Assembly: GCA_002841685.1 (NCBI GenBank)
Contig: PHAM01000015.1
Coordinates: forward strand, 1-35,550
Direction: 5' to 3'
DNA: 35,550 nucleotides
DNA from: Elusimicrobia bacterium HGW-Elusimicrobia-2
GTDB taxonomy: Bacteria; CG03
Shown piece by piece: positions 32,031 through 35,550 of this stretch (within the stretch, counting starts at the first letter, position 1; each line of letters starts with the position of its first letter). Below the pieces are notes generated by a model. It saw nothing but the letters and a program-made list of their open reading frames with translations. It made no database searches and had not been told where the DNA came from. The position numbers and the translations under genes are program-made.

Positions 32031-33335
32031 TTATTTATTGCAAAGAAATCCTATCTGCTTTGTGACATCTACGATTTTCTTTGTTCTTTCGAATGATTTA
32101 TCTATGTAGTCCTTTTTCAAAATAACTTTGCTGTTAGCATCCAAAGAACCATCAATAACAGCAAGTTTTTTCGCCTCGATCACCATTTCTTTCATACACG
32201 CACCGCTGAAGTCATTTGTTCTTTCCGCAATAAGTTCGAAGTTTATATCGTCGGTTAAAATCATATCTTCTGTAAATTTAGAAAGCATTTTAATTCTTGC
32301 CTTATAATCAGGATTGTCTAATTGTATTCTTAAATCAAATCTGTTGGGTCTATGACTAATGGCTTTATCCAATATTTGAGGAGCATTTGTAGTTGCAATG
32401 GTTATTATACCCCCAAACGCGCTTAGTCCATCAAGATAATTCAACAATTCACCCATTAGTGCAGGGTCATTGCTGATATTTCTGTTTGAAATTGTCAAAT
32501 CTATGTCCTCCAAAAATATTATTGACGGCGAAAGTTTGCTGCCAAGTTCATATAGGTCTTTAATCTCGTTACCATAACCTCTAAAAGATTTTGGAGTTAC
32601 CCAAATAGTAGTAAATAATTCCGAGGACGCTAAAATTTTACCTACGAGTGTTTTCCCATTACCCGGTGGCCCCTCTAATATAATACCCCGCTTAAAAGGG
32701 ATGTTATGTTTTTCAAAAAGTTCTTTATGTCTTAACAATCCCAATGTGTTTTCCTTTATAAGTTTTATTTTTTCATCTTCAAGAACGAGTTCGTCAAAAG
32801 AATACTTTCTATCAAGACAGATTTTTTCTTTGTCTTTTGTAATAATTTTACCTTTTAATGAACAATCTGAAAAAATGTGATTATATATTATTGAAGCAAT
32901 TTCGCTACGATTTTTACGAACAACTAAATCTATACAGAAACAAAATCTTTTTTCAAATGGATTAAAACTTCCGCAAGATACAACCACTTTATCTTTATGA
33001 TTTTTGTAGAATTGAAGCCCATCAATAACCGGTTTTGTTTCCTCCCCCGAATGTATTGCAAGATTCATTGATGTTTTCCATTTTCCGCTTTCGCTTACTT
33101 TATTAAAACCGTTTGAAATAAGATATTCATTCAGAAGTTTAAAAATCCTCGCAGTATAATAATAAACGCCGCCCCTGATTAAATACAATTCATCTCTTCG
33201 GCATTCTAAAAATGAACAAACTTTGTCTAAATCAACGTCAACAAAAAAAGTATCCAATAATTTGTTTGAAGTTTGTGACCTATGGTAAATGTAATGCTCG
33301 CTACTTTCTACGTCTGTTTTTGCTATTTGTTCCAT
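32031..33335 (-). CDS. AAA+ ATPase with unknown N-terminal domain
   Basis: A 434-residue protein. The first ~190 residues match nothing I recognise; they are rich in aromatic and charged residues and contain a few cysteines. The AAA+ module follows: Walker A EGPPGNGKT (about 221-229), Walker B IIFLED (272-277), sensor-1 TTN (315-317) and an arginine-finger-like HRPNRFD (328-334). The module resembles FtsH, CDC48 and BCS1 ATPases, which remodel or thread proteins. There are no membrane helices. AGGAGGTG precedes the ATG, directly after a leader-type hairpin. Upstream lie a PD-(D/E)xK nuclease and a zinc-ribbon protein on the same strand; a joint function is inference. Confidence 0.85.
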   Translation of the reverse strand: MEQIAKTDVESSEHYIYHRSQTSNKLLDTFFVDVDLDKVCSFLECRRDELYLIRGGVYYYTARIFKLLNEYLISNGFNKVSESGKWKTSMNLAIHSGEETKPVIDGLQFYKNHKDKVVVSCGSFNPFEKRFCFCIDLVVRKNRSEIASIIYNHIFSDCSLKGKIITKDKEKICLDRKYSFDELVLEDEKIKLIKENTLGLLRHKELFEKHNIPFKRGIILEGPPGNGKTLVGKILASSELFTTIWVTPKSFRGYGNEIKDLYELGSKLSPSIIFLEDIDLTISNRNISNDPALMGELLNYLDGLSAFGGIITIATTNAPQILDKAISHRPNRFDLRIQLDNPDYKARIKMLSKFTEDMILTDDINFELIAERTNDFSGACMKEMVIEAKKLAVIDGSLDANSKVILKKDYIDKSFERTKKIVDVTKQIGFLCNK

Positions 33336-33354
33336 TTTTCACCTCCTAAAAAAT

Positions 33355-33433
33355 AAAAAACCTTCATACAGATTTTCCCCGTATGAAGGTTTTTTTATTT
33401 AAAGTGCGGGATTTATCCCTCTAACTCCACACT
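33355..33433 (-). promoter_or_regulatory. Structured leader RNA, copy 1, before the AAA+ gene
   Basis: Two hairpins read from the minus strand: P1 pairs AGTGTGG with CCGCACT (33403-33433), with GGGATAAATCCC inside. P2 is a 15-bp stem (33355-33395) around an 11-nt loop, GGGGAAAATCT, followed by a U-run and then AGGAGGTG and the ATPase start. P2 looks like an intrinsic terminator placed before the gene. I see no promoter just upstream, so it may act within the operon. Homologous to copy 2 at 34289-34367. Confidence 0.75.
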
Positions 33434-33462
33434 GTTATTCTATATAGAACGCATCTACTTTC

Positions 33463-33993
33463 CTATTTTACTTTTTTTACTTTTTGATATTCCGGATTAT
33501 CCCAATATTCTTTTGTCGCTTTTTCTTTATCAATTGGTTCTACTAAATAAATACCAATTTCTTCATGAAGCATTTTTTCTATATTTTCTAATAATTTCGT
33601 ATGAGCCTCTGTCCATACCCCATATTCATAACCATTTACCATACAAATGGAAAGATGAATTTTCTTATCGTTAAATATATCATCCGAAATATTTTGAAGT
33701 TCATAACCTAATTCTATAAGCGATCGGTAAATAAGAAGTTCACCAATTGCTTGTGCCAAATAAAAAGAAGGATGGTTGCCGCTTTTACATTCTACCAACT
33801 CAATATACTTTGGACGAACAATGATAAAATCTGGGTGAGATTTTGATATTGCGGAACCTGTAAAAGCAGTAGTTTGTATAGGCTCTTCTCTATAAATAAG
33901 TTTTTCTTCTACTTTTTCCGTGAATAGTAAATACTTTTCAAAAACTTTTTGCTGAACCTTTTCTTCCCATCCTTGCCCTTTACCGCTAGCCAT
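33463..33993 (-). CDS. PD-(D/E)xK superfamily nuclease (putative)
   Basis: A 176-residue protein. D55 and E68-x-K70 sit in HPDFIIVRPKYIELVECKSG, the PD...ExK core that binds metal in restriction-like nucleases. Q81 in the helix QAIGELLIYRSL matches the QxxxY-type motif often found after the core. The start I chose is the ATG at 33993, with GGGAGG upstream; a TTG at 34005 overlaps that site. It follows the zinc-ribbon gene by 18 nt, and the second leader-type hairpin lies 30-110 nt downstream, before the AAA+ gene. It may be the effector of the operon. A VRR-NUC, Holliday-junction or RecB-like subfamily cannot be chosen from sequence alone. Confidence 0.7.
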   Translation of the reverse strand: MASGKGQGWEEKVQQKVFEKYLLFTEKVEEKLIYREEPIQTTAFTGSAISKSHPDFIIVRPKYIELVECKSGNHPSFYLAQAIGELLIYRSLIELGYELQNISDDIFNDKKIHLSICMVNGYEYGVWTEAHTKLLENIEKMLHEEIGIYLVEPIDKEKATKEYWDNPEYQKVKKVK

Positions 33994-34011
33994 ATTACCT
34001 CCCAAAAATCT

Positions 34012-34269
34012 TTACCCGACCCAACTGCCACATTTGACACAATTGTCTTTGCCGGGACCAAAACCACAGTTACTGCACAACTTAGCAGGTACAGGATTGC
34101 TCCCAACCCATGCTCCGCATTTGACACAATTATCACCGGCTGGTCCAAAGCCGCAATTATTGCATAGTTGTGCTTCAATAGTAGCAAAGGGTTGCCCGCA
34201 CTTTACGCACTCATCGGCTTTACTACCGAACCCACAATTTCCACAAAGTTTTGCTTGTACTCCTGCCAT
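34012..34269 (-). CDS. Triple zinc-ribbon protein
   Basis: An 85-residue protein that consists almost only of three repeated zinc ribbons, each CxxCGFG followed by a short acidic stretch and CVKCG: CGNCGFG...CVKCG, CNNCGFG...CVKCG, CSNCGFG...CVKCG. Each would bind one zinc ion. It has no enzyme domain, so it is probably a nucleic-acid or protein adaptor. AGGGAGG precedes the ATG. It is the first gene of the nuclease/AAA+ operon and lies about 120 nt from a strong promoter, with a structured leader in between. The close likeness of units 2 and 3 points to recent internal duplication. Confidence 0.8.
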   Translation of the reverse strand: MAGVQAKLCGNCGFGSKADECVKCGQPFATIEAQLCNNCGFGPAGDNCVKCGAWVGSNPVPAKLCSNCGFGPGKDNCVKCGSWVG

Positions 34270-34288
34270 AGTTCCTCCCTAAATTAAA

Positions 34289-34367
34289 AAAACCTTCACA
34301 CCGGTTTTTCCTGCATGAAGGTTTTATTTTTTATAGTGTGAGATTTATTCCTTCCAACAGTCACACT
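34289..34367 (-). promoter_or_regulatory. Structured leader RNA, copy 2, before the zinc-ribbon gene
   Basis: P1 pairs AGTGTGA with TCACACT (34335-34367). P2 (34289-34325) pairs AAAACCTTCATGC with GTGTGAAGGTTTT around an 11-nt loop, AGGAAAAACCG, followed by seven U before AGGGAGG and the start codon. The stem changes relative to copy 1 keep pairing, and the wobble pairs work only on the minus-strand RNA. It sits in a leader of about 120 nt. The likely mode is termination control; a short stand-alone RNA ending at P2 is the alternative. Confidence 0.78.
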
Positions 34368-34396
34368 TCTATCCAGTATTCGCAATTCCTGCTGTT

Positions 34397-34424
34397 ATTG
34401 TACCTAAAAAACTAAATTTGTCAA
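34397..34424 (-). promoter_or_regulatory. Sigma-70-type promoter of the zinc-ribbon/nuclease/AAA+ operon
   Basis: On the minus strand, a perfect TTGACA (34419-34424), a 16-nt spacer and TACAAT (34397-34402). Transcription should start near 34390, about 120 nt before the zinc-ribbon ATG, so the transcript begins with the structured leader. Confidence 0.75.
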
Positions 34425-34510: not shown

Positions 34511-34641
34511 GAGTCCACTCTAATAAGTCCTTTTCAATGTCATTTCGAGGAGCATAGCGACGAGAAATCTTTTTATTATAAGCATTTCAGATTTCTCGCT
34601 TCGCTCGAAATGACAACTTTAATGCTTTTTGGAGTGGACTC
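34511..34641. mobile_element. 131-bp MITE with terminal inverted repeats and 6-bp target duplication
   Basis: Ends are perfect 10-bp inverted repeats, GAGTCCACTC and GAGTGGACTC, with partial pairing further in. ATAAAT flanks it on both sides (34505-34510 and 34642-34647), a target-site duplication. Inside are inverted arms TGTCATTTCGAG (34538-34549) / CTCGAAATGACA (34604-34615) and GAGAAATCT (34562-34570) / AGATTTCTC (34589-34597). No coding capacity; it would depend on a transposase elsewhere. Its removal with one ATAAAT restores the reading frame of the next gene. Confidence 0.82.
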
Positions 34642-34661
34642 ATAAATATCTTGATTTTTTA

Positions 34662-35550
34662 ATGCAGGTTAAAACACGAATTCAAACATCCCGGTTGCGG
34701 GCTGTTTTGTCCGTAAATGCGGAATTAATCTATCTATACTGGGATATCGGGCGAATGATTGATAAAAGGCAAAAAAAGGAGGGCTGGGGCGCCGGCGTTA
34801 TTCCGAAATTATCAAAAGATATTAGAAATGAATTATCAGAGGTTAAAGGTTTTTCCGAGAGAAATCTTAAAAGGATGGTTCGCTTTTTTCGTGAATATCT
34901 TTCGTTAGTCACAATTGTGCCACAGCCTGTGGCACAATTAGAGGAAAGGAACAAAAGAGGGGAAAAAGTGCCACAAGCTGTGGCAAAATTAGCTCCAAAA
35001 GAGGTATTGGAAAAATTGCAGCAGACTGTTGCAAAAATTCCATGGGGGCACAATGTCTTACTTATGGAAAAAGTCAAAGACATGTCTTCCCGGTTGTGGT
35101 ATATGCAAAAAACTATAAAAAACGGCTGGAGTCGCAATGTGCTTAGTTTGATGATTAAGGGCGGCGCTCATCAGCGGGAGGGTAAGGCGGTTACCAATTT
35201 TGATTTACGCCTTCCATCTCCGCAATCGGATTTAGCAAAACAATCTTTAAAAGATCCGTATATTTTTGATTTCCTTACGTTAGAAGAACCATTCAGAGAG
35301 CGGGAGCTGGAAGCGGGTCTTATCCGGCATTTAGAAAATTTTTTATTGGAATTAGGTCAGGGATTTTCATTTGTAGGACGGCAATATCATCTTAACCTGC
35401 ATTATTCATCTCTGAAAACCTACCCTTTGTCAAGCCCCTTTTTTAAATCTATTGGGAATAGGAAGGGACATCGTGACCCCCCTGGGAAGAAATATAGGTT
35501 TATCAGGTTGATTTGTTTTGGGGAAGAATATGAAAAGAAGATAAGGATTA
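34662..35550 (+). CDS. DUF1016 (YhcG-type) protein, 5' end split by MITE, 3' end altered and runs off the window
   Basis: An open frame with the DUF1016 N-terminal pattern: AVLSVNAELIYLYWDIGRMI, a KGFSERNLKRMVRFF helix, IPWGHNVLLMEKVKD, and DPYIFDFLTL...GFSFVGRQYHL. In the family a PD-(D/E)xK nuclease core then follows. Here, after about position 35,396, the translation no longer resembles the family, although it stays open to the window end. The ATG at 34662 has no ribosome-binding site; an older start at 34495 is separated from it by the MITE. It is probably a decaying gene. It contains a Pro/Gln-rich insert with palindromic DNA. YhcG-type proteins are linked to defence and mobile-element regions, but their role is not settled. 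Confidence 0.7.
   Translation, partial: MQVKTRIQTSRLRAVLSVNAELIYLYWDIGRMIDKRQKKEGWGAGVIPKLSKDIRNELSEVKGFSERNLKRMVRFFREYLSLVTIVPQPVAQLEERNKRGEKVPQAVAKLAPKEVLEKLQQTVAKIPWGHNVLLMEKVKDMSSRLWYMQKTIKNGWSRNVLSLMIKGGAHQREGKAVTNFDLRLPSPQSDLAKQSLKDPYIFDFLTLEEPFRERELEAGLIRHLENFLLELGQGFSFVGRQYHLNLHYSSLKTYPLSSPFFKSIGNRKGHRDPPGKKYRFIRLICFGEEYEKKIRI
34913..34939 (+). repeat. 27-nt perfect palindrome inside the DUF1016 gene
   Basis: Arms AATTGTGCCACAG (34913-34925) and CTGTGGCACAATT (34927-34939) pair perfectly around one C. A diverged copy, GTGCCACAAGCTGTGGCA, lies at 34967-34984. The encoded peptides are VPQPVAQL and VPQAVAKL, and a third related unit, LQQTVAKI, leads into the conserved IPWGHN. Confidence 0.75.

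Follow-up and report, generated by a model that had tools for sequence, protein, structure and literature searches.

We describe a widespread family of small structured RNAs, absent from Rfam, which lies at the transcript starts of restriction-modification, CRISPR and other DNA-handling genes. That this is a genuine conserved RNA, read from the minus strand of the window (the whole stretch of DNA analysed here, 35,550 nt), appears practically certain, and it very probably functions in cis as an attenuator. To our knowledge, where control of the many costly, sometimes toxic immune systems of bacteria has been described, the regulators are mostly proteins.

Two homologous leaders in the window

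As proposed in an earlier note on this DNA, the window contains two homologous minus-strand leaders, each with a hairpin and a terminator ahead of a Shine-Dalgarno (SD) site. The two copies (copy 1, 33350-33434; copy 2, 34287-34370) are 83-85% identical over ~95 nt in a pairwise alignment and share one layout, in which a 7-bp stem (P1) is joined by an A-rich linker to a long P2 hairpin, with a U-run, AGGAGG or GGGAGG, and ATG behind it. Both leaders fold better than every one of their dinucleotide shuffles (z = -6.0 and -4.1). The features of the two copies and of the genes behind them are as follows, with the basis of each assignment in parentheses.

34419-34424, minus strand: -35 box TTGACA of the copy 2 promoter (sequence)
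34397-34402, minus strand: -10 box TACAAT of copy 2 (sequence)
34361-34367, minus strand: 5' arm of copy 2 P1, AGUGUGA (folding, copy comparison, P1 covariation)
34342-34358, minus strand: conserved P1 loop of copy 2, GUUGGAAGGAAUAAAUC, with GAAGG at 34350-34354 (conserved in 147 members)
34335-34341, minus strand: 3' arm of copy 2 P1, UCACACU (copy comparison, sequence)
34289-34325, minus strand: P2 hairpin and U-run of copy 2, an intrinsic terminator (folding, copy comparison)
34317-34321, minus strand: CCUUC of copy 2, 5' arm of the terminator, proposed to form a pseudoknot with the P1 loop (alignment, loop complementarity, sequence)
34274-34279, minus strand: SD site GGGAGG of the zinc-ribbon gene, start codon at 34267-34269 (sequence)
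34012-34269, minus strand: first gene behind copy 2, for an 85-aa zinc-ribbon protein (ORF; Pfam DZR/PHF5)
33463-33990, minus strand: predicted nuclease, 175 aa, second gene under copy 2 (ORF; PHROG 843, E 3e-4)
33427-33433, minus strand: 5' arm of copy 1 P1, AGUGUGG (folding, copy comparison)
33410-33425, minus strand: P1 loop of copy 1, GUUAGAGGGAUAAAUC, with GAGGG at 33417-33421 (alignment, sequence)
33403-33409, minus strand: 3' arm of copy 1 P1, CCGCACU (copy comparison, sequence)
33357-33393, minus strand: P2 hairpin and U-run of copy 1, an intrinsic terminator (folding, copy comparison)
33385-33389, minus strand: CCUUC of copy 1, 5' arm of the terminator and proposed pseudoknot partner (sequence)
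33342-33347, minus strand: SD site AGGAGG of the AAA+ gene, start codon at 33333-33335 (sequence)
32031-33335, minus strand: gene behind copy 1, for a 434-aa AAA+ ATPase (Pfam AAA; PADLOC IetA, E 6e-24; NCBIfam)

The joint structure comprises 23 pairs, five of which differ between the copies yet stay paired: U-G/U-A and G-C/A-U in P1, and U-A/U-G, A-U/G-U and G-U/G-C in P2. These pair-preserving differences are as the earlier note had described them, except that one further P2 pair, absent from that note, changes from G-U in copy 1 to an A.G mismatch in copy 2. Its argument that selection acts on the minus-strand RNA holds as well, because three of the changed pairs are wobbles on the minus strand only. 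A clear promoter precedes copy 2, as had been claimed, with the end of its -10 box ~30 nt before P1 rather than at the suggested distance of 10-20 nt; copy 1 has a weak -10-like sequence and no clear promoter.

Copy 2 opens the transcript of the zinc-ribbon protein and the likely nuclease, which is weakly similar to phage Holliday junction resolvases, and copy 1, coming after the stop codon of the nuclease gene, precedes the gene for the AAA+ ATPase, a distant relative in sequence of the phage-defence ATPase IetA. Leaders and genes are probably part of a defence island.

The leader operon is adjoined by a gene for a DUF1016/YhcG PDDEXK nuclease (34629-35549, plus strand; nuclease domain matched in part), and a DUF1016-type gene is the direct target of the leader RNA at another locus, L257. 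The gap that separates this gene from the operon contains an inverted repeat at 34537-34617, GTCATTTCGAG...CTCGAAATGACA, resembling a small non-autonomous repeat element.

An RNA family spanning several phyla

The window's own genome has no copies beyond these two, and no others were found among 16 genomes of its small phylum. The AAA+, nuclease and zinc-ribbon proteins had no close relatives in the collections covered for each of them, drawn from viral contigs, plasmids, phages, genome contigs or 290-386 genomes, so that homologues had to be sought by the RNA. A covariance model built from the two window copies only (R1) revealed two clear relatives in genome G242 (386 genomes searched), with E-values of 4e-5 and 4e-4, and matched L084 at 4e-8; the latter is a viral-labelled contig found by the DNA pattern GAAGGAATAAATC followed by CCTTC. 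When L084 was left out of the next model (R2, four sequences), it was scored at 73.6 bits (E 1.6e-12), and the same model detected ten copies in another phylum (six in G387 and four in G242), besides one in G426. A third model (R3, 13 sequences) found members in G299, G100 and G228, and at least one match in 142 of the 359 genomes sampled from the phylum to which G299 belongs, with up to six per genome. Retrieval of 120 of the R3-positive loci led to an alignment of 147 members at 135 loci, from genomes of several phyla or groups of uncultured bacteria. The homologues with covariation to which the earlier note had looked for confirmation are thus present, and covariation in P1 is strong.

Several sets of matches were set aside. 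Exact P1 DNA patterns gave, apart from L084, chance matches in the genome and viral collections, mostly in coding DNA. Weak model matches of 28-42 bits (e.g., L050-L052, L054-L062 and L153-L158) are without the loop motif and resemble simple terminators, and plus-strand matches of 24-33 bits reflect only the palindromic nature of P2.

Conserved architecture and covariation

The consensus order of elements is a promoter, ~13 nt, P1 with its loop, a linker, ACCUUCRY, a variable hairpin and RYGRRGGUUUUUU, and the member alignment has one P1 per leader. P1 occurs in three types (GUCCYG/YGGAC, GUGGUG/YCCAC and GUGCUA/UGGCAC), in which the fifth position is usually non-pairing. The loop has the consensus GUUNGAAGG, followed by 5-9 nt ending in AA(AU)C, and the linker between P1 and CCUUC has the consensus NUUAAAAAAGUAAAA. 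A further pairing inside P1 links GUU to AAU or AAC, as G-U41 in 82 of 85 long-loop members and as G-C42 in 19 of 21 short-loop members.

Covariation was recorded at 15 pairs, with 301 cells in which both sides have changed (109 distinct rows); the alignments were fitted to models, so that these counts lean towards structure, a bias limited by a control with slid partners and by a second alignment. The covariation of P1 is reached by none of 500 shuffles and is far above the slid-partner control. Covariation in the outer pairs of P2, as in P1, exceeds the two controls by far, and the separate alignment set, A12, agrees.

Two expression platforms directly upstream of genes

A pattern search identified a terminator at the end of 142 of the 147 members. 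Of the other five, three (L252, L292 and L314) have terminators that escaped the pattern, and two are second copies, in L224 and L235. At five loci (L224, L235, L232, L276 and L288), a further copy is found directly behind the terminator copy. Here P1 (GUCG/CGAC), loop, linker and CCUUC are the same as in the terminator copy, and P2 consists of CCUUCUUUGUU/AACAAAGGAGG or similar arms, the 3' arm being the SD site, with ATG a few nucleotides on and the P2 arm AAAGGAGG just before it. The SD site is paired in all four second copies that were folded. Because the second copies swap P2 for an SD-hiding arm, conservation stops at CCUUC and what follows can be exchanged, as is the case in riboswitches. 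The combination of a terminator copy and an SD-burying copy probably provides double control, transcriptional and translational. Tandem copies, spaced by 2-316 nt, occur at eight loci in total.

A promoter-like pair of boxes lies just upstream of 129 of the 147 members, compared to 37% of random positions, with the -10 box ending ~7 nt before the start of the model. An SD site with a start codon follows within 60 nt of the end of 73 members (16% of random positions), and the nearest downstream ORF of at least 100 aa is on the same strand at 125 of 127 loci and on the opposite strand at two, at a median distance of 63 nt; the gap between leader and start codon is often 12-16 nt. The family thus displays two features of a cis-regulatory attenuator, namely, a conserved, compensatorily changing fold in the 5' leader and, ahead of the gene, a terminator or an SD hairpin. 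The attenuator reading put forward in the earlier note is supported by homologues and placement, but has to be widened, since some copies look built for control of translation rather than termination.

Genes associated with the family

Downstream genes were typed with Pfam on representatives and with BLAST clusters. Genes for defence or DNA handling follow the RNA at 44 loci: DNA methyltransferases at 20 (HsdM, 6; N6/N4, 8; C5, 4; D12, 2), ORF6N/RhuM/BRO at six, Cas3 at four, RadC and DnaB-like proteins at two each, Cas12a (with RuvC_1 and REC1) at one, and DpnI, TdeIII, DUF1016, SIR2, TIR, a zeta toxin, an MNT-type nucleotidyltransferase, a PLD-helicase and an AddA-like helicase (judged by eye) at one locus each. 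Control of the zinc-ribbon, nuclease and AAA+ genes, as envisaged in the earlier note, fits the position of members, nearly always directly before a same-strand gene, but these genes are only part of a much broader set of defence and DNA-handling targets. Among 20 randomly chosen upstream genes, most are housekeeping (e.g., EF-G, pseudouridine synthase, nitroreductase, a transporter, PRA isomerase), alongside a resolvase, a PDDEXK nuclease and an RNase-H-like protein; the association is therefore with the downstream genes, although this comparison falls short of a full enrichment test.

The most frequent single family, SIMPL/DUF541, exceeds any single defence family with 15 loci (e.g., L221, L248 and L308). 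We know of no defence role for SIMPL genes, and their association with the RNA may hint at the nature of the signal. A family found downstream at five loci presumably resembles radical-SAM DNA repair proteins. Proteins of 365-389 aa without a Pfam match are encoded at seven loci, often followed by a second gene of ~360 aa, and the two together are a candidate for a defence system of a new type. The remaining downstream genes are unassigned or of other types.

Genes for the 365-389-aa proteins (L170, L172, L177, L178, L179, L220 and L238) repeatedly follow the RNA immediately and sometimes have restriction genes as neighbours; the four members scanned had no match in Pfam or PADLOC. The Cas12a-like protein, encoded behind a family member at L242:1825-6039 (plus strand), has 1405 aa. 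At L147/L173, inspection by eye revealed a member beside Cas1/Cas2-like ORFs and a CRISPR-like repeat array, its P2 seemingly replaced by an IS3-like insertion.

A proposed loop-CCUUC pseudoknot

CCUUC is complementary both to GAAGG of the P1 loop (98% of cells) and to the 3' arm of the terminator. Its letters U142 and U143 are U in 111 of 111 sequences, whereas their terminator partners, where A varies to G, are G in 28 and 34 of the 111. At these two pairs, C-G never takes the place of U-G, yet three pairs away both kinds of pair occur equally often, a contrast for which Fisher's p of ~1e-12 ignores relatedness, related sequences not being independent. The simplest reason would be that CCUUC is fixed since it is also obliged to pair with the A residues of the loop; in copy 1 of the window, with GAGGG in the loop, this pairing is kept via one G-U. 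Variation in the pairs between CCUUC and the terminator is one-sided, without compensatory change, and because the loop-CCUUC pairs are nearly invariant, the alignment offers no compensatory change to prove the pseudoknot. Conservation of the loop and CCUUC could instead reflect a protein site. The 5-bp pseudoknot helix is expected to be weaker than the terminator, in which case a partner or co-transcriptional timing would be needed.

From what was computed directly (the existence of the family, the fold of P1, the constancy of its loop and of CCUUC, the location of promoters and genes, and the two platforms), we infer a pseudoknot, an ON direction and a ligand or protein as the driver. The attenuator RNA would begin at about the transcription start. 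By default, CCUUC would pair with the downstream arm of P2, producing an intrinsic terminator or, in some copies, hiding the SD site, and the gene would be off. Once a signal stabilised the pairing between CCUUC and GAAGG of the P1 loop, an H-type pseudoknot would arise, spanned by the A-rich linker; P2 could then not form and the gene would be read or translated. In the window, the switch would act on the zinc-ribbon/nuclease pair and the AAA+ gene of the probable defence island. The direction is predicted to be ON because freeing the gene in both platforms requires CCUUC to be out of P2 and the loop could take it up. We favour, with some confidence, the reading of loop-CCUUC pairing as the ON state of a riboswitch-like attenuator operating by pseudoknot; the chances that its driver is a small-molecule ligand rather than a protein seem about even.

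The target genes give no hint of a single shared metabolite. A tentative reading, which we regard as possible but somewhat improbable, is that an undescribed riboswitch class senses a cell state connected with foreign or damaged DNA and, through both platforms, switches on unrelated immune and DNA-processing systems in cis, including restriction-modification, CRISPR-Cas of types I and V, SIR2/TIR, DpnI, RadC and others. If true, one small RNA switch for restriction-modification, CRISPR-Cas, SIR2/TIR and other systems would represent a common control layer, and the ligand would reveal the signal by which uncultured bacteria arm themselves. Searching for the RNA would give a handle on new defence genes, and the presence of terminator and SD versions side by side makes the mechanism directly testable.

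Comparison with described RNAs

At the curated gathering cut-off, Rfam 15 has no match for the window, for L053/L063 or for 12 further member loci, and relaxed scans produced chance-level matches only, in line with the earlier note, which had recognised no described riboswitch family. Nor was such an element found in the open-licence literature searched.

The closest architecture is that of preQ1-I, an H-type pseudoknot with an A-rich L3 (PMC11625349). Both RNAs are very small, with a P1 hairpin and an A-rich linker (L3 in preQ1-I), and both have transcriptional and translational versions; the pairing of the loop with a downstream platform strand in preQ1-I resembles that proposed here. By contrast, the pseudoknot of the Bacillus subtilis preQ1-I favours termination (PMC11625349), whereas the one proposed here would be the ON state and block the terminator; moreover, members do not match the Rfam model and their downstream genes are not queuosine genes. 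SAM-II is a small leader of the pseudoknot type, as proposed for this family, and the methyltransferases encoded at 20 target loci are SAM-dependent, but there is no Rfam match and targets such as Cas3, Cas12a, SIR2 and SIMPL are not SAM-related.

The closest published gene association is, we assume, that of the proteobacterial radC motif (RF01754), reportedly described by Weinberg in 2010 as an orphan motif in the leaders of DNA-related genes, radC among them. From this motif, for which a listing in PMC2864571 gives Proteobacteria, the family is set apart by model score, its members having no match in the Rfam scans, rather than by structure. The name of the GUCCY-hairpin (Weinberg 2010) recalls the P1 start GUCCYG; a table entry reports it from Bacteroidetes and Proteobacteria, without an Rfam number (PMC2864571), and the likeness is one of name. 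Type III toxin-antitoxin (ToxI-like) loci also have a promoter, a small RNA and a terminator before a phage-defence gene, but the family lacks tandem antitoxin repeats, and dozens of unrelated genes lie downstream of its members, with no ToxN-like family among those scanned. By eye, there is neither a conserved start codon or frame, as in a leader peptide, nor the layout of an integron attC site, and members sit before genes; a mobile-element end is ruled out, as copies in different genomes have only the RNA in common.

Alternative explanations

An attenuator without small-molecule ligand or pseudoknot, in which an RNA-binding regulator encoded by the host or a phage binds P1 with its GAAGG loop and controls termination, is rather unlikely. 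Short, loop-centred conservation on a freely covarying stem is typical of protein sites, and functionally mixed targets are found in regulons, but no regulator gene is seen consistently beside the element, and CCUUC, although outside P1, is equally fixed, a two-partner pattern for which this explanation needs an extra reason.

We consider it quite improbable that the family is a constitutive short RNA, acting in trans as an sRNA or RNA antitoxin or damping costly genes. Its own promoter and terminator, the several copies per genome, and the roughly half of members that end with no SD site and start codon in the next 60 nt are compatible with such a role; however, members almost always lie directly before a same-strand gene, often 12-16 nt from its start codon, and the SD-burying copies make sense in cis only.

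The idea that the island has duplicated an ordinary intrinsic terminator that serves the genes upstream accords with the strength of P2 and the position of copy 1 behind a stop codon, but is hardly credible and, as a full explanation, is refuted by the homologues, given that P1 covaries, the loop is conserved across phyla, a promoter-like sequence lies just upstream of most members and copy 2 opens an operon. For the cis-acting attenuator that we favour, a secondary role of this kind is conceivable: upstream genes, too, are mostly co-directional with the RNA (109 versus 10), so that P2 may in places also end upstream transcription.
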